Assembly: GCA_027080315.1 (NCBI GenBank)
Contig: JALWSI010000190.1
Location: forward strand, 1 to 14,034
Origin: a bacterium
GTDB lineage: Bacteria > Thermosulfidibacterota > Thermosulfidibacteria > Thermosulfidibacterales > JALWSI01
DNA: 14,034 nucleotides
Reading direction: 5' to 3'
Position numbers and translations under genes: made by a program. The notes beneath the pieces were generated by a model, which was given only the letters and a program-made list of their open reading frames with translations, was not told where the DNA came from and searched no databases. Shown here in pieces: positions 1-14,034 of the stretch (position 1 is its first letter; each line of letters opens with the position of its first letter).

Positions 1-95
1 ACTCTGCAACCTGCAACCTCAACGAGATACCTGGGCACCCAGAACTCAAGGTCTTCGTATCCTTCGTGCAAAAGAAAGGCTATGCACTTTTCCAT
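1..95 (-). CDS. DJ-1/PfpI-family protein, N-terminal fragment (cut by window edge)
   Basis: Reading leftwards from the ATG at 95, the first 31 codons give a protein beginning MEKCIAFLLHEGYEDLEFW and continuing VPRYLVEVAG. This matches the first beta strand and helix of DJ-1/PfpI (ThiJ) family proteins, where an acidic 'GYEDLE' turn follows the first hydrophobic strand. The nucleophilic-elbow Cys and the rest of the fold lie beyond the window. The start lies 3 nt after the pckA stop, and the run AAGGGGG at the end of pckA serves as its SD, so the two are probably co-transcribed and translationally coupled. Family members include deglycases, proteases, chaperones and amidases; this fragment cannot separate them. 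Confidence 0.6.
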   Translation of the reverse strand, partial: MEKCIAFLLHEGYEDLEFWVPRYLVEVAGCR

Positions 96-98
96 ATT

Positions 99-1595
99 TT
101 ACCCCCTTAGGGCCTCCAAAATTTCAGGATTGAGCCCTTCAAACCTTTTGAGCCATTCTATCCTTTCCTCGTAGAGGCTCTCCATCATCTTTTCGTAGGT
201 TTCCCTGCCGTAGATTCTGTAAGGATCAAACAGGCTGCATTGGACATCTTGGGCCTCTGTTGCCACATCGTAGCCAATCACTGGGTCGTACTCCCACTTC
301 ACCTCTCCCCTCAAAGCGTCAAGAATCAGATTCAGGGTGGTCTTTGGAGAGATCTTTATTCCCTCCTTTATTCCCCCTACCTTTCCTGTGTTCACTATCA
401 GCACCTCTACGTGGGGATTCTGTCGTAGTATCTCAAGTAGCTTGTTTCCCTCTTTGTGGGGATTGTCAACGATGAAGGGATTGAAAGCCACAACCCTTTT
501 AGACTCCCCCTCTCTTGATGGGTCGTCTGCTGAGGTTATTGTGGACTCACCAAGCATGAAGAAAGCAGCTGCCTGTTCTGGAGAGCGTAACCTGCCCAGA
601 GGAGGAAGGTCGTATCGTCTGGTGTTGAAGAGTATTGTGTCAACCCGCTCTAAGTCTATCTCGTCTTTGGTGTGGGGAATGAGAAACCTTGGAACAATAC
701 ACCTACCGTTTGAGGTGAGGCTTAGGTTGTCAAAGTCAATCTCGCCATGTTCATCCACCCACGCATTCTCTGCTATTGAGATGGGTGATTGGGTGGCAAC
801 AAAGAGCTCGGGTTGTTGTGTGACTGAGTCGGTTTTGATGTAGAAGCTGCTTTCTGTGCCATAGGCGTATGTGTCGTTGCGTAAAAGCATTATATCATCT
901 TGCAGAATGCTGATTCCCTCAGGAGACCGAAGGTCGTGGTCGTTCAAGGTGATGGTGGTCTTACCGGTTCCGCTTAATCCAAATATGAGAACCCCCTTCT
1001 CTTTTATCCTATCTTTAAACCTTAATCTGTAGAGCTTACCTCCTGCGTGCATGGCGAGACCATTGCGGTACTCCCTGGTGAGATACATGACAGAGCGTAG
1101 AGCCGCCATCTTGGCTTCTCCATAGTAGTCTGTTCCCAATACAAAGGTGAAGACTCGTCCGTCCTTTGTGGGGTGAACGTAGATGGCTTTTTGGGGCCAC
1201 TGTGGAACCTGGATCACCACTGCATCTGGCTCCTCTTGATGGTGAGGTTCAAAGAAGTTTTGTGAGAACATGTGGGCAAGACGGGCAAAGTCTCGTGTGA
1301 CATAGTAGTGGATACGGAACCTGAATTTTGGGTTTTTACACACGTCTCGTTCCACCATAACCAGGTCTGAACCCTGAAGGAAATCTCTGACGGCTTTCAA
1401 TTCTTTCTCTAATTCTGGATCGTACTCTTTCACCACAAAGGTCTCTTTGGCACTGCGGGATCTCACTGAAGTATGGTACAATGTGATGCCCCAGCTGTTT
1501 CTTATTGAAGATCCTCTGGCCAGCAATTTCAACTCTTCAGTGGAGAGATTCCTCAAGATGTTGCCGCCTACTATGGGTTGGGTGAATATATCCAT
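99..1595 (-). CDS. pckA: Phosphoenolpyruvate carboxykinase (ATP), divergent form
   Basis: Predicted to interconvert oxaloacetate + ATP and PEP + CO2 + ADP in the cytoplasm. The 498-aa length is near the usual size of the ATP class. The P-loop GLSGTGKTT is at residues 206-214. The second metal/nucleotide motif appears as LQDDI (231-235). An EssFYiKT segment (about 248-255) corresponds to the conserved E-G-G-C-Y-A-K-T region, and AMHAGG (181-186) replaces the usual MHCSAN. The substitutions around these motifs suggest a divergent subfamily rather than a close E. coli PckA relative. The start ATG at 1595 has GGGAGG 5 nt upstream. A possible -10 (TATATT, minus strand, 1639-1634) lies about 40 nt upstream, without a convincing -35. 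Downstream it runs straight into the PfpI-family gene. The enzyme class is confident; the physiological direction cannot be read from sequence. Confidence 0.88.
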   Translation of the reverse strand: MDIFTQPIVGGNILRNLSTEELKLLARGSSIRNSWGITLYHTSVRSRSAKETFVVKEYDPELEKELKAVRDFLQGSDLVMVERDVCKNPKFRFRIHYYVTRDFARLAHMFSQNFFEPHHQEEPDAVVIQVPQWPQKAIYVHPTKDGRVFTFVLGTDYYGEAKMAALRSVMYLTREYRNGLAMHAGGKLYRLRFKDRIKEKGVLIFGLSGTGKTTITLNDHDLRSPEGISILQDDIMLLRNDTYAYGTESSFYIKTDSVTQQPELFVATQSPISIAENAWVDEHGEIDFDNLSLTSNGRCIVPRFLIPHTKDEIDLERVDTILFNTRRYDLPPLGRLRSPEQAAAFFMLGESTITSADDPSREGESKRVVAFNPFIVDNPHKEGNKLLEILRQNPHVEVLIVNTGKVGGIKEGIKISPKTTLNLILDALRGEVKWEYDPVIGYDVATEAQDVQCSLFDPYRIYGRETYEKMMESLYEERIEWLKRFEGLNPEILEALRG

Positions 1596-2021
1596 ACCAA
1601 CCTCCCTTTCTCTGATATGCCTTCTGCTCTTAAAATATAGATCCCTTACTTGGCTAAAACACCCCCATGGCGTTTGTTTGTATCAAGGGCTTTTAGTAGG
1701 GTATTCCTCTTTCCTTAGATCAAGACCCCATGATGTTGTGTTTTAGAGCTATTATGAACACATTATTTAGGAAGAATAAAGCTTAGGATATTAGCAATCT
1801 AATTAAGATATGGATATATAAACTCAAGATATAGAGATAGATTGTTATTAAAGGATCAATATATTGTAATTAGGTTTAGAATAGATATGTAGTGGTGCAA
1901 ACTTAAAGCTTTGGTTTTGGTGAAATGCAGGGAAAGAGGGTCATACTCAAAGGTTTTTATGGCCAAAGTCTCTCCGTTGAAGTTTTGCTTGAAAAATTAT
2001 TAAAAAGTTAAAGTGAAGCTA
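1596..2021. other. AT-rich divergent intergenic region
   Basis: This stretch separates pckA (leftward) from the Cys/TSP3 operon (rightward). It is much more AT-rich than the flanking genes. I see the pckA SD at its left edge, a possible leftward -10 at 1634-1639, and no long ORF. One 28-codon plus-strand ORF (1925-2011, MQGKRVILKGFYGQSLSVEV...) ends in a plausible amphipathic stretch. It lacks a well-spaced SD and has no recognisable family, so it is not called as a gene. No tRNA, inverted-repeat mobile element or CRISPR-like repeat was seen. Confidence 0.6.
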
Positions 2022-2050
2022 TTGACAAAGTGCTTCAAGTAATTTTTATT
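2022..2050 (+). promoter_or_regulatory. Sigma-70-type promoter for the Cys/TSP3 operon
   Basis: A consensus -35 TTGACA (2022-2027) is followed after exactly 17 nt by TTTATT (2045-2050, 4 of 6 matches to TATAAT), in AT-rich DNA. Transcription would start near 2057, giving a leader of about 360 nt before the lipoprotein ATG at 2416. This is pattern evidence only. Confidence 0.55.
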
Positions 2051-2076
2051 AAGGATAGATGGAAAGGAGGTGGTGT

Positions 2077-2130
2077 GTGAAGCTAAAAAGAAAAGGGGGA
2101 AATAAGAGAATAATAAAGTGCAAAACTTAA
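2077..2130 (+). CDS. Possible 17-aa basic leader peptide (uORF1)
   Basis: A GTG at 2077 follows the extended SD AAAGGAGGTG (2063-2072), with 6 nt between GGAGG and the start codon. The reading frame encodes MKLKRKGGNKRIIKCKT and stops at 2128-2130. An ATG at 2059 in the same frame would add MERRWC but would place the SD inside the coding sequence. The peptide is strongly basic and has no recognisable family. It lies at the very start of the predicted leader transcript. It may be a real small peptide, a regulatory uORF or chance; the strong SD is the main argument for translation. Confidence 0.25.
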   Translation: MKLKRKGGNKRIIKCKT

Positions 2131-2190
2131 AGAATAAGGTGAAGCAGACGATATGGGAGAAAGGTTAAGATGAAAGGAGGTGGTAGAGAA

Positions 2191-2361
2191 ATGAAGAGTA
2201 TCTTGGCGGTGGAGGGGGGAATCGTATTGAGCGCTAAAGGCTTACAAAAGTGCGGTCTTAGAACACCTCCATGCGCCGTCCTTACAACGCGGTTCAAGAA
2301 GGAGCTTACAATAAAGAGCAGGTATTTTGTTCCCCTAAGGGGGATTGGGGTAGGTATCTAA
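2191..2361 (+). CDS. Possible 56-aa small protein (uORF2), unknown
   Basis: The ATG at 2191 is preceded by a second extended SD (AAAGGAGGTGG, 2172-2182) at good spacing. An in-frame ATG at 2170 would start before that SD. The product begins MKSILAVEGGIVLSAKGLQK, has two cysteines (in KCGL and PPCAV) and ends in a G/I-rich tail. There is no signal peptide, membrane segment or known domain that I can name. It lies 54 nt upstream of the lipoprotein ATG, in the same predicted transcript. Its composition is only weakly protein-like, so it could be a degenerate gene or a leader ORF. The SD is better than that of several undoubted genes here. Confidence 0.3.
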   Translation: MKSILAVEGGIVLSAKGLQKCGLRTPPCAVLTTRFKKELTIKSRYFVPLRGIGVGI

Positions 2362-2415
2362 AACTAAAGATAAAGGTGTGTGTTGGCTAAGAATTTAGGG
2401 AAGGAGGATAGAAAG

Positions 2416-2943
2416 ATGGCAGGTAGATTGAAAGTGTTGGGGTTTCTTTTGGTAGCCGTTCTGGTTGCTGGACTGGTTGGATGTGCTCCGTGTGGGCCTG
2501 TTTGTGAAGAGGTGACAGTAGAAAAACCGGCTCCAAAACCGCCTCCTAAGGCTGCTCCGGCGCCTGTGGTGAAGACCGTATGCACCACTTGTCAGAAAAA
2601 GGTGGTTACCTCTTGCAGAAAGCCCTCTGCGTGTCCCGTGTATTGCTTCTGGAACTGTGTGGATGACCGTGACTGTGACTGCATTCCTGATGCCAAAGAT
2701 AAGTGTCCCATGGAGAAAGAGAATTACAATGGGATAGACGATCAGGATGGTTGTCCTGAGAAGATAGTCCCCATGCCTGTGATCCAGAAGGTGATTCGCG
2801 ATAGCGACAACGATGGAATCGTTGATGATGACGACAGGTGTCCTTTCGAACCAGAGGATCGCAATGGGTTTATGGACGAAGATGGTTGTCCAGATGGAGG
2901 TCAGAAGCCTCTTTACAAGGAGTATCTTAACAAAAAGAGATAG
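2416..2943 (+). CDS. Cys-rich lipoprotein with thrombospondin type-3 (TSP3) repeats
   Basis: A 175-aa envelope lipoprotein. The ATG at 2416 is chosen because AAGGAGG (2401-2407) sits just upstream and the product then starts with a classical signal: MAGR, a hydrophobic core, and the lipobox LVGC with the acylated Cys at residue 23. A Pro/Ala/Lys tether (about 37-52) follows, then a Cys-rich part (CTTC at 56-59 and further cysteines), then two acidic repeats of TSP3 type: DRDCDCIPD...DKCP (84-98) and DSDNDGIVDDDDRCP (129-143), each followed by an NG-DxDGCP loop. TSP3 loops bind Ca2+ and occur in OmpA-like envelope proteins, but no OmpA domain is present here. In the first loop the usual Gly is Cys. 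It is closely similar to the C-terminal half of the next gene, so the pair arose by duplication. Role unknown, probably structural or Ca-binding in the periplasm. Confidence 0.8.
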   Translation: MAGRLKVLGFLLVAVLVAGLVGCAPCGPVCEEVTVEKPAPKPPPKAAPAPVVKTVCTTCQKKVVTSCRKPSACPVYCFWNCVDDRDCDCIPDAKDKCPMEKENYNGIDDQDGCPEKIVPMPVIQKVIRDSDNDGIVDDDDRCPFEPEDRNGFMDEDGCPDGGQKPLYKEYLNKKR

Positions 2944-2999
2944 CTTTAGGTGGGGCCTATTTTAAAAAGGGCTCCTTGAACCTAAGGGGAGGTTAAGAG

Positions 3000-4103
3000 A
3001 TGAAGAGATATTGGTATTTTAGTGTTATAGGGGTTGTGGGTACCATCCTAATTCTAATGAGCGGTACGGCTTCAGCCCAGACCGTTGTTACCCCTATTCC
3101 TTATCACAACCCTGGTGCTCCAGCTGCCACGGTGGTGTGTAGTACCTGTCCCACTTGTTCTGCATGTCAGATGATGGCTGCTCCAAGGATGAACTGTGCG
3201 GCTTGTCCTACATGCGCAGGATGTGTGGCTGCTCAAGCAGCACCTGCTGCTCCGCCACCACAGCCTAAACCAGCACCTCAACCTGCTGTTCCTGCACCTG
3301 CGCCTCAGCCCAAAGCCGCTCCTGCTCAGCCACCGGTGAGTGCAGCTCCTGCTGCACCTTCTCCACCTGCTCCTGTAGTGAACTGCAACACCTGTCCTAC
3401 CTGTGCTGGGTGCGCCCGGGCAGTTGCTCTTCCTCCTCCACCACCGCCTGAGGCAGGTACCTGCACCGTTTATCCTTACTGGAACTGTGATGGTGACAGG
3501 GACTGTGACTGCATTCCCGACTCGGTGGACAAGTGCGTAATGGACAAGGAGAACTACAACGGTATTGACGACAAAGACGGTTGCCCCGACAAGATCATTC
3601 CCATGGTGGTGATTGATAAGGTGGTGAAGGATACCGACAACGACGGCATCGTTGATGATGATGACAGGTGTCCCTTTGAGCCTGAAGACCACAACGGTTT
3701 CAAAGATGACGACGGTTGTCCTGACGGAGGAAAACCTACCCACTACAAAGAGTACATGAACAATCCCCTACCCCATGCCGAGAAACAGGCTTCTGAAGAG
3801 AGTGCGAAGGAGCTCACTAAGGATCTCAATAACGAGTATCTGATCCACGTGGGTTCTTTTGACGATCTCATTGACGCAATGAATGAGGCTCAAAAGCTGC
3901 ATGATAAGCTGGGAATCAAGAGGGTTTGTGTCTCCAAAGGAGTGGCTGATGGCAACACAGTGTATCGCACCATTGTGGGTCCATTTAAAGGAATGGAGCC
4001 TGCCAGGAAGGTGTTAGATGTGCTGTTGAAGGTTAAATGGGTGAAGAAACCTAGGGTTATTCCTGCGTCTAAGTTTGAAGAGTGCGTTAGCATGAAGTTT
4101 TAA
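3000..4103 (+). CDS. Secreted Cys-rich, Pro/Ala-rich TSP3-repeat protein with C-terminal SPOR domain
   Basis: A 367-aa periplasmic protein; SD AGGGGAGG lies just before the ATG at 3000. The signal peptide (1-26, ending ASA before Q27) has no lipobox. Three copies of C-x-x-C-P-T-C-x-x-C follow at 47-56, 66-75 and 129-138, the last two separated by a Pro/Ala/Gln-rich linker (about 77-128). Residues 160-253 repeat the neighbouring lipoprotein's paired TSP3 loops (DRDCDCIPD; DTDNDGIVDDDDRCP), including the unusual Cys in loop one and the shared YKEY ending. Residues 279-345 (EYLIHVGSFDD..., YRTIVGPF, ARKVL) form a SPOR domain, a fold that binds denuded peptidoglycan. The Cys clusters lack the CxxCH of c-type cytochromes, so disulfides or metal binding are likelier. 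Inferred role: a wall-anchored, Ca-stabilised spacer or scaffold acting with the lipoprotein. I know of no named family with this architecture. Confidence 0.82.
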   Translation: MKRYWYFSVIGVVGTILILMSGTASAQTVVTPIPYHNPGAPAATVVCSTCPTCSACQMMAAPRMNCAACPTCAGCVAAQAAPAAPPPQPKPAPQPAVPAPAPQPKAAPAQPPVSAAPAAPSPPAPVVNCNTCPTCAGCARAVALPPPPPPEAGTCTVYPYWNCDGDRDCDCIPDSVDKCVMDKENYNGIDDKDGCPDKIIPMVVIDKVVKDTDNDGIVDDDDRCPFEPEDHNGFKDDDGCPDGGKPTHYKEYMNNPLPHAEKQASEESAKELTKDLNNEYLIHVGSFDDLIDAMNEAQKLHDKLGIKRVCVSKGVADGNTVYRTIVGPFKGMEPARKVLDVLLKVKWVKKPRVIPASKFEECVSMKF

Positions 4104-4128: not shown

Positions 4129-4159
4129 GAAGGCCCCTGCGGGGGCCTTCTACTGTTTT
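4129..4159 (+). terminator. Rho-independent terminator of the Cys/TSP3 operon
   Basis: A perfect 9-bp GC-rich stem, GAAGGCCCC / GGGGCCTTC, with a 4-nt TGCG loop is followed by TACTGTTTT. It lies 25 nt after the stop of the SPOR-domain gene and isolates that operon from the tRNA promoter downstream. Confidence 0.85.
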
Positions 4160-8116: not shown

Positions 8117-8391
8117 TGGACCTCCAGTTCCATTGTTTCCCTGTCAACCTCAACAACCACCTTGCTGAAGAGTCCCCATAGGGCCTTGTCTATCTTATCT
8201 TCTAAAGAGGTTTCTGGATCAAAAGGAACATTTAGAACCTCAAGCACCTCTTCAATTGCCATTCCCTCGTCCACAAACTCCTTGATGGTTATAGTGGTAG
8301 CTTGCTTTATCTCATCTCTGCTCTTCTCTTTGCCTTCAAGTTTGTCCATTGCTCGTCTCAAGATGATGTCTCTCTTTCTCATACCCTTCAT
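8113..8391 (-). CDS. Conserved-looking hypothetical protein, 92 aa
   Basis: I do not recognise this protein. It is soluble, highly charged and probably mostly helical: a basic N-terminus (MKGMRKRDIILRRAM), a K/E-rich helix to about residue 30, then EFVDEGMAIEEVLEVL and a central NVPFDPETSLEDKID turn, ending in a short strand-like VVVEVDRETMELEV. There are no Cys, no signal peptide and no membrane segment. Its ATG overlaps the lolD stop by 4 nt and its own stop overlaps the porA start by 4 nt, so it is certainly expressed with them. Its position, where a small PFOR subunit gene would normally stand, makes an accessory or assembly factor for PorAB conceivable, but the sequence has no [Fe-S] ligands. 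Confidence 0.75.
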   Translation of the reverse strand: MKGMRKRDIILRRAMDKLEGKEKSRDEIKQATTITIKEFVDEGMAIEEVLEVLNVPFDPETSLEDKIDKALWGLFSKVVVEVDRETMELEVH

Positions 8392-9071
8392 ATCTCCTCT
8401 TCAAGGTGGCCATCCACCATCTTAAATCTCCTCTCTGCCATGGCTGCTATCTCTGGATCGTGGGTGACGATCACCATGGTTCGATTTAGCCTCTCTTGCA
8501 GCTCCAACAGCACCCTTAACAGTTCAAGTCCCGCGCTTCTGTCTAAGTTTCCTGTTGGTTCATCTGCAAGAAGCAGATCAGGATCGTTAATCAAGGCCCT
8601 TGCCATGGCCACCCTCTGTTGCTCTCCTCCGGAGAGCTCAGAGGGCCTGTGGTTCAGCCTATGTTCAAGCCCAAATCCTTCAAGAAGCCCTGTTGCCTTT
8701 GTGGCTGCTTCTTCCTTTGGAACACCTGCCATAAGCGCAGGCATCATAACGTTTTCAAGAGCCGAGAATTCAGGCAAGAGATGATGGGCTTGAAAAAGGA
8801 ACCCTATGGTACGATTTCTGGTAGATGCAAGCTCTTTGTGGTTCATTCTTATGGTGTTCTGGCCGTTCAATACGATCTCTCCCTCAGTGGGTTTATCCAA
8901 CAACCCTAAGAGATGTAGCAGAGTTGACTTTCCTGAACCTGAGGGTCCCACAATGGCAATGAACTCGCCTTTTTCAAGGTGGAGGTTTACCCCTTTAAGC
9001 ACCTCAACCGTCTTGTGAGAGTTTGTGTACTGCTTGTGAAGGTTCTTTGCTTCCAAGAGGGGATCACTCAC
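8388..9071 (-). CDS. lolD: LolD/MacB-type ABC transporter ATP-binding protein
   Basis: A 227-aa ATPase of the LolD/MacB class. LolD drives release of outer-membrane lipoproteins from the inner membrane with the LolC/E permease. Walker A GPSGSGKST (42-50), Q-loop Gln94 in FLFQAHHLLPEF, signature LSGGEQQRVAMARAL (146-160), Walker B LLLADEPTGNLD (166-177) and H-loop His204 (VTHD) are all intact. The FQAHHLLPEFSALENV stretch is particularly LolD-like. No permease gene adjoins it: it follows the merR-like gene (overlap 8 nt) and precedes the 92-aa gene (overlap 4 nt). MacB-, FtsE- or other MacB-like ATPases are alternatives because the permease is not visible. Confidence 0.85.
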   Translation of the reverse strand: MSDPLLEAKNLHKQYTNSHKTVEVLKGVNLHLEKGEFIAIVGPSGSGKSTLLHLLGLLDKPTEGEIVLNGQNTIRMNHKELASTRNRTIGFLFQAHHLLPEFSALENVMMPALMAGVPKEEAATKATGLLEGFGLEHRLNHRPSELSGGEQQRVAMARALINDPDLLLADEPTGNLDRSAGLELLRVLLELQERLNRTMVIVTHDPEIAAMAERRFKMVDGHLEEEI

Positions 9072-11025: not shown

Positions 11026-11868
11026 ATGGATGCCAGGAAGCTGCTTCTGCTAAAAGATCAGGTTATGCCTTTTGTAAGGAAGGGAGGAGACCACGCGGCG
11101 GTCAACTTTTCACCTATAGGAGGGGGACGAGAGAGCGCTCTTGCCGTTGAGGAGAAAGGAATTAGTGACTTTGTGACAAGGGTGGATAGGGAGATAGAAG
11201 AGATAGTTGTTTCTGCTTTAGAACGCATAACCCCGGATATTCCCGTTGTGGCTGAAGAAGAGCATTGTTACTGGGGAGAAGGCTCTGTGCCTCCAACCTG
11301 CTGGATTCTGGATCCCTTGGATGGAACCAGGAACTTCATAAGGGGATATAGGAGATTTGCCCTTTCTCTGGGGCTCAGGGTTGAGGGTGAGATGGTAATG
11401 GGATTGATCTATCAGCCCATGACTGGAGACCTATTCTGGGGTGTTAAAGGTGGAGGGGCATGGAATCATGAGAAGCCCCTAAAGGTGTCAGAGGTCAAAG
11501 AGCCGAGTAGATGGACCGTTTCTATAGGTATGCCCTTTAAAGCTGTGGAGTGTTTAGACGGATTCATAACGATTTACCGCCATCTATTCTCACATGGGGT
11601 GGCCATTCGCCATACCGGCTCTGCTGCTCTGGATATGGCCTATACTGCAGCAGGGGTGTTTGACGGAGCAGTGGAACTTGCCATGGCTCCTTGGGATGTG
11701 GCTGCTGGTGTGCTTTTGATTGAAGAGGCTGGAGGATCAACCAGGTTTTTAGAGGATTCTCCCTTCTTGCTCTCCTCTTCTTCTGTAGGGGGAAGCGCAG
11801 TGTTCTTTGAATGGCTAAGCGAGTCGAAAGTTATGAATCCTGTTGCAGATTGCCTTAAGGGGATTTAG
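11026..11868 (+). CDS. Inositol monophosphatase-family phosphatase (IMPase/CysQ/FBPase IV type)
   Basis: A 280-aa Mg-dependent sugar- or nucleotide-phosphatase. Family motifs are in order: KGISDFVTRVDREIE (44-58), the metal ligand pair in VVAEEEH (E77-E78), LDPLDGTRNF (95-104, with the two metal-binding Asp at 96 and 99), and PWDVAAGVLLIEEAGG (222-237) with Asp224. The specific substrate (inositol-1-P, fructose-1,6-bisphosphate, or 3'-phosphoadenosine 5'-phosphate) cannot be fixed from motifs. The ATG at 11026 lacks a recognisable SD, so translation probably depends on ribosomes finishing rng 9 nt upstream; ATG 11065 would remove part of the first helix. Its 3' end lies just upstream of the next gene. 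Confidence 0.88.
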   Translation: MDARKLLLLKDQVMPFVRKGGDHAAVNFSPIGGGRESALAVEEKGISDFVTRVDREIEEIVVSALERITPDIPVVAEEEHCYWGEGSVPPTCWILDPLDGTRNFIRGYRRFALSLGLRVEGEMVMGLIYQPMTGDLFWGVKGGGAWNHEKPLKVSEVKEPSRWTVSIGMPFKAVECLDGFITIYRHLFSHGVAIRHTGSAALDMAYTAAGVFDGAVELAMAPWDVAAGVLLIEEAGGSTRFLEDSPFLLSSSSVGGSAVFFEWLSESKVMNPVADCLKGI

Positions 11869-11911
11869 TATTGAATCTGTTGGGGGAGATTATCTGAAAA
11901 AGGAGCAGGGC

Positions 11912-13024
11912 TTGGAACACGAAGAGATCCAGCTTTGGGAGAGAATAAAAGAAGGCTCTTTATCTGATGCCGATAAGCAACTCGTATTTGACCTGTGCCA
12001 TGAGGTGATAAGCTTTTTCAGCCGCAGCCGTATTGCTCCCACACCAGAGAACTACACCATGTGGTTTCTGGCCTTTGCCTATCTAAGGGAGAAGGGAATA
12101 AGAAGCCCCCAGATTGCTCAGCTCTTTGCTGCTTATGACAAGGTTGTTGAGATGCTTGATGCTGGAGAGACCAAAGAGCAGGTGGCGGTAGAGAGCGTCT
12201 CGTTGAATCTTGGGGACGAGGTGAAGAAGATCTTGAGGGAGTTAAGAAACCTTCTATTTCATATCGCTGAGACAGTTCTTGAGACCCGAGAGCTCTCCAG
12301 GGACGAGAGAAGGCTTCTTAACAGGTTCAGAATTAGGCTGAAGGAGAATGCTCTTGAGAAGAGTGACATAGACAGGCTTGGAGATATCCTGAACCAGATT
12401 GATGTTAAGACCGGGTACACCCTTAAAGAGCTGAACGAAAAGATCAGCTCTATGGAAGAGAAGCTCGCAGGTAAGATAAAGAGCAGCGCTTTGGATCCTG
12501 TCTCTGGAGCTATGAAGCTCAACATATTCAAGATGATACTTCGCAAGCTGTTGAGACGTAAAGAGATCGTTGATGAGCCATTCACGGTTCTAATGGTTGA
12601 CGTTGATAACCTTGCGGCTATCAACGATAAGTACGGCGAAGAGGCAGGTGATCTTTATCTGAAGAGGCTTGTTCGGGTGATCAATAATGAGCTAAGGGGA
12701 AACGACTTTGTGGCTCAATACAGAGGAGGCACCTTTCTGGTGCTTTTAAGAGACGTTTCTATAAAGACCGCCTCTCGAGTTGCCCAGAGGCTTAAAGACA
12801 AAATAGACCACATAAAGATCAGCTATAAAGGGGAAGAGTTCTCTACCACTGTTAGTATGGGCTTTGCAGAGGCTGAGAGAAAGGACACCTTTGAGACCAT
12901 TCTTGAAAAGTGTGAATCAGCCCTTTACCTGGCAAAGTCAGAGGGCAAAAACTGCATTCGCAGTTACATAGATGTTCTTACAAGAGAGGCCGCAGAGAAA
13001 AATTCCCAAAGTCGGTCCTTTTAG
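11912..13024 (+). CDS. Degenerate GGDEF-domain protein (likely c-di-GMP binder, not a cyclase)
   Basis: The start is TTG 11912 because AAGGAG lies 6 nt upstream; earlier in-frame starts (TTG 11843, ATT 11870) overlap or abut the phosphatase gene. The 370-aa product has no membrane segment. Residues 20-80 (VFDLCHEVISFFSR...APTPENYTMWFLAFAYL) resemble the N-terminal helical domain often found in soluble diguanylate cyclases. A charged helical/coiled-coil region (about 100-190) joins it to the GGDEF fold (195-355). The active-site motif is RGGTF (271-275) instead of GG(D/E)EF, and the early substrate motif is weak (SGAMKLNIF). The I-site RxxD survives as RGND (262-265), exactly 5 residues before it. 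Cyclase activity is therefore unlikely; binding of c-di-GMP as an effector is the better inference. The partner is unknown. Confidence 0.82.
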   Translation: MEHEEIQLWERIKEGSLSDADKQLVFDLCHEVISFFSRSRIAPTPENYTMWFLAFAYLREKGIRSPQIAQLFAAYDKVVEMLDAGETKEQVAVESVSLNLGDEVKKILRELRNLLFHIAETVLETRELSRDERRLLNRFRIRLKENALEKSDIDRLGDILNQIDVKTGYTLKELNEKISSMEEKLAGKIKSSALDPVSGAMKLNIFKMILRKLLRRKEIVDEPFTVLMVDVDNLAAINDKYGEEAGDLYLKRLVRVINNELRGNDFVAQYRGGTFLVLLRDVSIKTASRVAQRLKDKIDHIKISYKGEEFSTTVSMGFAEAERKDTFETILEKCESALYLAKSEGKNCIRSYIDVLTREAAEKNSQSRSF

Positions 13025-13615: not shown

Positions 13616-14034
13616 TTATCCTGTGGCTATTACTTTGTTCTTTCCAGAATTTTTAGCCATATACAGTCTTTTGTCAGCCTCTTTGATCGCTTTAAAGAAC
13701 TCTTCCTTGCCTTTACATCTGGCCACCCCAAAGCTTATGGTGACCTTTAGATTCTTGTCTTGATACCAAGTAACTTCTTTCTCCACATTCGCCCTTAGCC
13801 TTTCCACAATCTCGTAGGCTATGGCACTGCTGCTAACATCGTGGAGCAGAAGCAGGAATTCCTCACCTCCTCACCTTACTGCAATGTCTCCTTCTCTTAG
13901 GTTGCTTCTTATGATCTTGGCAATGGCCTTCAACACCTCGTCTCCTGCTTCGTGTCCGTAAGTGTCGTTTATCTTCTTGAAGTCGTCTATGTCTCCTATT
14001 GCTACGAAGTTGTATCCCCATCTGCTAATTATCC
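13616..14034 (-). pseudogene. GGDEF (diguanylate cyclase) gene with in-frame TGA before GGEEF; 5' end cut by window edge
   Basis: Reading leftwards from 14034, one frame gives a canonical GGDEF fold: [20 protein letters not shown], a following helix ending RSNLREGD, then IAVR, a TGA stop (13871-13873), GGEEFLLLLHD, and a complete C-terminal half (SFGVARCKG..., EADKRLYMAKNSGKN) ending at TAA 13616. The TGA occupies the residue just before GGEEF, normally Tyr or Trp; TGG to TGA is one base. Both halves are otherwise intact with no frameshift, so the event is recent, a sequencing error, or readthrough. TGA is a normal stop elsewhere in this window (FKBP, cobT, lolD, porB), so general codon reassignment is excluded. 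The I-site REGD stands 5 residues before GGEEF. The N-terminal sensor domain is outside the window. Confidence 0.78.

Follow-up and report, generated by a model that had tools for sequence, protein, structure and literature searches.

A tandem pair of cysteine-rich TSP3-type proteins, one a predicted lipoprotein and one with a SPOR domain, as a candidate split link between membrane and cell wall

The window (the whole 14,034-nucleotide stretch of bacterial DNA analyzed here) carries two adjacent genes for Cys-rich proteins, p1 and p2, which are separated by 56 bp and flanked by a PEPCK gene on the opposite strand and by a tRNA-Met gene (Table 1). They are the only copies of the family in the 1.84-Mb assembly of the window genome. 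We placed the p1 start at the ATG at 2416, which has a Shine-Dalgarno sequence (GGAGGATAG) a few nucleotides upstream; nothing of this kind precedes the in-frame GTG at 2380. The probable terminator beyond p2 comes from a scan in which terminator-like sites in the window were no more numerous than in shuffles. Upstream of the pair, ∼820 bp (1596–2415) contain no convincing gene and could represent leader ORFs or a decayed gene; two block copies ending in the Shine-Dalgarno-like GGAGGTGGT (2051–2074 and 2161–2184) and a weak 63-aa ORF (2170–2361) are found there. The PEPCK gene (99–1595, minus strand) is a divergent ATP-type member of the NF006821 subfamily. Elsewhere in the window are a gene for a GGDEF protein (11843–13024, plus strand) and, near the window end, an ORF similar to the C-terminal part of another GGDEF domain (13616–13807, minus strand). 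An Rfam scan of the window returned tRNA only.

Table 1. Features of the gene pair in the window and of its relatives in three Desulfurellales MAGs (L033, L034, and L035).
Feature	Position	Strand	Remarks
p1, Cys-rich TSP3-type lipoprotein (predicted)	2416..2943	+	175 aa, lipobox LVGC
p1 shared core, YCFWNC...YKEY	2641..2925	+	95 aa; loop 1 DRDCDCIPDAKDKCP, linker, loop 2 DSDNDGIVDDDDRCP
p2, exported Cys-rich protein (predicted), C-terminal SPOR domain	3000..4103	+	367 aa, signal peptidase I type
p2 N-terminal region	3138..3413	+	three CxxCPTCxxC tetra-Cys motifs in Pro/Ala-rich spacer
p2 shared core, YPYWNC...YKEY	3471..3755	+	95 aa; alignment with p1
p2 SPOR domain	3834..4025	+	Pfam, AlphaFold2 model, PDB fold match
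Stem-loop GAAGGCCCCTGCGGGGGCCTTC, probably the terminator of the pair	4129..4150	+	consensus scan only
p1 orthologues	L033:682-1089, L034:3854-4261, L035:3375-3782		135 aa
p2 orthologues	L033:1156-1893, L034:4327-5043, L035:3851-4576		238-245 aa
Small exported Cys-rich protein	L033:310-654, L034:3522-3812, L035:3005-3289		94-114 aa, just upstream of pair

Among 84,980 species genomes, strict peptide patterns, which more distant pairs may escape, identified the family in three MAGs labelled Desulfurellales/Desulfurellaceae. In all three, p1 precedes p2 as it does in the window, with a gap of 65–68 bp, and whole-genome searches of the carriers gave two copies per genome and none single. Two phyla are involved, since the phylum list of the MAGs does not include the window genome and the relatives of the window jump from order to domain. 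Neither the eight remaining genomes in the window's order nor the 22 remaining ones in the Desulfurellales phylum have the family, and several hundred further genomes (two sets, of 386 and 385, that overlap in part) contained generic TSP3 repeats only; among the roughly 800 genomes searched, in partly overlapping sets, no unpaired copy was found. Scattered, never-adjacent homologues, which the preliminary description had named as contrary to its reading, were not what we saw: the pair is adjacent in 4/4 carrier genomes. We conclude that it is a real, rare two-gene unit common to two phyla, with conservation counts based on four genomes and eight proteins. The pair may have been lost from the sister genomes or gained by transfer. 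Phage or plasmid cargo was rejected after searches of viral contigs and plasmids yielded no relatives.

In the Desulfurellales MAGs, the small protein encoded upstream of the pair has the core CILDKTCVYxxxADxCVxxCGLPDCxxCCG and no Pfam match, and a search of the window genome detected no counterpart of its gene. In the L033 copy, the N-terminal stretch is internally repeated, and the upstream context of this locus ends at a contig edge. Directly upstream of the L034 cluster (1–3320) lie two genes for multihaem c-type cytochromes that are relatives of ExtM/ExtN, proteins of selenite/tellurite-reduction operons. A multihaem-cytochrome conduit partner was rejected as the general context, as these genes were seen at L034 only and do not adjoin the cluster in L035.

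The n-region, h-region, and Cys-containing lipobox of bacterial lipoproteins are found in all four p1 proteins. The lipoboxes, called by regular expression and not by a trained predictor, are LVGC in the window (residues 20–23, with Cys23 predicted to be lipidated and Ala at +2), VVGC in L033, VTGC in L034, and MTGC in L035; a regular expression found no lipobox in any of the four p2 proteins. Window p2 is laid out as a signal peptide with its cleavage site between ASA and Q, a Pro/Ala-rich, Cys-rich spacer, the core described below, and the C-terminal SPOR domain, which matched Pfam SPOR (PF05036) at E 2.4e-7 (31.4 bits versus a cut-off of 21). The L034 and L035 proteins also score above this cut-off (39.5 and 39.2 bits), and the L033 protein is borderline, with 19.7 bits, slightly too low, in one search and 21.0 bits in another. 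The assignment of a lipid anchor to one copy and a SPOR domain to the other, made in the preliminary description, is thereby upheld. By these sequence features, p1 and p2 are exported sister proteins with split anchors, p1 being predicted to be membrane-fixed via its lipid and p2 to carry a cell-wall-binding domain. The window also encodes a LolD-like ATPase (8388–9071, minus strand; TIGR02211 E 1.5e-86, just below cut-off), which adjoins a short MerR-like gene and fits with the sorting of lipoproteins to the outer membrane in this organism.

AlphaFold2 modelled the SPOR domain at a pLDDT of about 89–95. The top PDB match of this model was the SPOR domain of RlpA (TM 0.78, normalised to that domain), with DamX and DedD as further top matches. 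The glycan site of RlpA consists of Q270, R302, R309, and R311 plus backbone contacts, and binding is mostly via the main chain (PMC6895207). R309 is retained in 4/4 p2 proteins and the position of RlpA F274 is aromatic in p2, while Q270 is replaced by His (window and L033) or Lys (L034 and L035) and window p2 lacks Arg at the positions of R302 and R311. We consider peptidoglycan binding by the p2 SPOR domain likely. PDB pentatricopeptide matches to p2 were rejected as weak repeated-helix matches within the SPOR region (single stretches at i-E 12 or worse).

The preliminary description had claimed that the adjacent genes share a segment of about 95 residues with the same acidic and Cys spacing, derived from an old duplication of which both copies were kept, and our measurements agree on each point. 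The two cores align ungapped over 95 residues, 72 of which are identical (76%), and the p1–p2 alignment has a BLOSUM62 score of 496, while 300 shuffles reached 78 at most. A direct DNA repeat (2636–2900 and 3466–3730) is 74% identical; the core DNA is 71.6% identical, or 85, 86, and 43% at codon positions 1, 2, and 3, versus 28% expected at the third position from composition. NG86 gave a dN of 0.16 with dS saturated. These values indicate an old, coding core with purifying selection acting on the protein.

Each protein contains one strict and one variant TSP3 motif. Loop 2 is the strict motif DxDxDGxxDxxDxC in 8/8 proteins, continuing ...GCP; loop 1 (DRDCDCIPDAKDKCP...GCP) is the variant DxDCDCxPDxxDxC, in which Cys replaces the usual Gly in all eight and which retains five ligand Asp, the third bracketed by Cys (DCDC). 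Ten predicted TSP3 Ca-ligand Asp and eight core Cys are invariant across the eight proteins, and 20,000 shuffles of each protein produced no strict TSP3 motif and never two loose ones. Because Pfam TSP_3 (PF02412) scores of the family proteins (13.6–24.3 bits) miss the gathering score of 25, with window p1 at a sub-threshold E of 0.057 and no match of window p2 at E 1, we refer to them as TSP3-type and not as Pfam TSP_3 members. The L034 p2 protein matched 5wtl, a solved structure of OmpA TSP3 repeats, with a whole-sequence E of 4.8e-14 as the sum over repeats and 3.4e-4 for the best single stretch, and the alignment of its loop 2 includes both repeat-framing Cys. In bacterial OmpA TSP3 repeats, calcium binding is reported to depend on an intra-repeat disulfide (Dai et al. 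2017, as cited in PMC12045341). The core loops of p1 and p2 probably bind Ca2+, and disulfides within the core are predicted. AlphaFold2 gave the core a pLDDT of ∼30–45 in both proteins, which we regard as uninformative and not refuting, since only eight sequences could be aligned and the fold would depend on calcium and disulfides. In total, the two window proteins contain 15 and 22 Cys. The tetra-Cys motifs of window p2 (residues 47–56, 66–75, and 129–138) are not present in the p2 orthologues of the three Desulfurellales MAGs; they are a lineage-specific feature of a predicted exported protein and could represent a metal or thiol site.

A protein tree of the eight cores did not separate a lipoprotein group from a SPOR group because the two cores within each genome resemble each other, with lineage-specific changes common to both (EPEDxNGFxDxDGCP in the window, EAGSxxNxGCP-like in Desulfurellales). 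In L033, p1 and p2 are 80–100% identical in 30-nt blocks over a stretch that starts ahead of loop 1 and runs through loop 2, with the exception of one linker block at 57%. Linker columns 46 (Pro versus Val/Ile) and 54 (Ile/Leu versus Val/Ala/Thr) are split by paralogue in 4/4 genomes. As read from these blocks, gene conversion homogenised the L033 loops and spared a linker stretch. The simplest reading of the sequences is a single old duplication followed by recurrent gene conversion that spares the linker, and a distinct linker may have been under selection. The unseparated core tree may instead reflect independent duplications, but columns 46 and 54, the SPOR tails, and the L033 conversion tract favor one old duplication.

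Several known systems resemble the pair in part. OmpA-family TSP3 proteins (5wtl) have the loop 2 pattern DxDxDGxxDxxDxCP...GCP, but p1 and p2 lack OmpA_C, combine one canonical with one Cys-variant repeat, and have, in p2, SPOR as the peptidoglycan domain; no Pfam OmpA match was found in the pair proteins of the window or of Desulfurellales. The lipoprotein PA1041/Pba is a peptidoglycan-binding anchor that links the outer membrane and peptidoglycan (PMC7947798). Its family model (NF053612) matches the TSP3-like loop region only, at 12.8–24.6 bits versus a cut-off of 250; it joins lipid and OmpA domain in one polypeptide, whereas in p1 and p2 the anchors are split and SPOR replaces OmpA. Single-chain proteins with a lipid anchor, TSP3 loops, and an OmpA_C-like domain are found elsewhere (L063:1243-1971; also L010). 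FtsN, DamX, DedD, and RlpA, the last itself a SPOR lipoprotein, resemble p2 in having a C-terminal SPOR fold after a low-complexity spacer. Unlike these SPOR proteins, p2 would have no transmembrane anchor after cleavage and has a TSP3 core instead of a catalytic domain, and it differs from RlpA in the replaced glycan-contacting Gln. Myxococcus TraA/TraB is likewise a two-protein unit of a Cys-rich, probably lipid-anchored protein and a TSP3/peptidoglycan-binding protein (PMC12045341), but TraB has a β-barrel and an OmpA domain and TraA a variable recognition domain, neither of which occurs in the pair; the TraB model (NF033763) covers only the TSP3 loop (18.2–22.1 bits versus a cut-off of 700). 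We found no paper on a bacterial protein that joins SPOR with TSP3, and outside the SPOR domain p1 and p2 are not covered by any curated family. The earlier proposal of an undescribed system appears to hold for the SPOR–TSP3 pairing, but not for its parts or for the idea of linking membrane and peptidoglycan via TSP3, which are known from PA1041/Pba, TraB, and the OmpA family. The domains are known; their split, paired arrangement appears to be undescribed.

Our leading reading, to which we give somewhat less than even confidence, is that the pair forms an accessory link between outer membrane and peptidoglycan, with the anchors on two paralogues whose cores associate. An ancient tandem duplication would have produced two exported, disulfide-braced, Ca2+-binding TSP3-type proteins that cooperate at the Gram-negative envelope. 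The lipid would hold p1 in a membrane, which Ala at +2 and the window's LolD-like gene lead us to expect to be the outer membrane; p2 would be free in the periplasm and grip peptidoglycan through its SPOR domain, and contact between the cores would join the two anchors. SPOR ligands are enriched at division sites, and the link could possibly be located there. We infer the membrane sorting, the glycan binding, and the core–core association, and a tether made through such contact is plausible. This reading is favored by the pair, order, and anchor types being alike in all carriers across two phyla, by the invariant Asp and Cys, by the matches of loop 2 to 5wtl and of the SPOR fold to RlpA, by cores kept alike within genomes while the linker is not, and by the single-chain lipobox–TSP3–OmpA_C-like proteins of other genomes. 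Against it we count the replaced Q270 and missing R302 and R311, the low core pLDDT, the small number of genomes, and the ability of gene conversion alone to hold cores alike without selection for interaction. The pair would be accessory and not the sole tether, since Pal/OmpA-type and other SPOR proteins are present (five Pal/OmpA_C matches and three SPOR proteins besides p2 in G000); a role as substitute for missing proteins of either kind was rejected because all genomes tested possess both. A more specific version, which we consider unlikely, is a two-component Ca-dependent clasp of the outer membrane to (septal) peptidoglycan, in which Ca2+-loaded, disulfide-bonded cores associate, the paralogue-specific linker makes the contact heterotypic, and the third protein completes the assembly in Desulfurellales.

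Ranked close behind the tether, and a real possibility, is that p1 and p2 do not bind each other and that their TSP3 cores are rigid, protease- and heat-resistant spacers that position p1 at the outer membrane and p2 at (septal) peptidoglycan for separate functions; the two would be co-located through common origin and co-expression. TSP3 repeats have such a spacer role between the barrel and OmpA domain of TraB (PMC12045341), neighboring paralogues tend to remain adjacent and undergo gene conversion, as in the L033 tract, and the cores are predicted at low confidence; however, common origin by itself would not require that the few carrier genomes, spread over two phyla, all keep the pair together and have no singletons, and two linker columns stay paralogue-specific despite loop conversion. 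Surface or matrix adhesion seems improbable to us. It would have p1 displayed outside, with its Ca-loops serving cohesion or mineral/sulfur attachment, p2 as a wall-side base, and the third Desulfurellales protein in the same surface layer. The weak TSP3-loop matches to MtsC (myxobacterial cell–cell cohesion) and TraB (outer-membrane exchange), the extra exported gene in 3/3 Desulfurellales, and the L034 cytochromes point this way, but the matches are limited to the generic TSP3 loop and far under cut-offs, a surface-export signal of known type is absent, the cytochromes are not beside the cluster in L035, and the window genome lacks the third gene. Least probable of all is thiol or metal chemistry, in which the cores, the loop 1 CDC, and the CxxCPTCxxC motifs of p2 would bind a transition metal or handle thiol/polysulfide, with calcium secondary. 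The high Cys content, the three tetra-Cys motifs, and the Cys for Gly in loop 1 of every sequence suit this idea, whereas the invariant core Cys are even in number and include four at the positions of TSP3 disulfides, none of the other three genomes has the tetra-Cys arrays, and the Asp ligands are invariant.

If the tether reading is true, two paralogues can each supply one half of a membrane–wall tether and be joined by calcium loops, and TSP3 would join the domains known to partner SPOR. The pair also provides a small, testable system in which gene conversion would keep two cores alike while one linker stays different.
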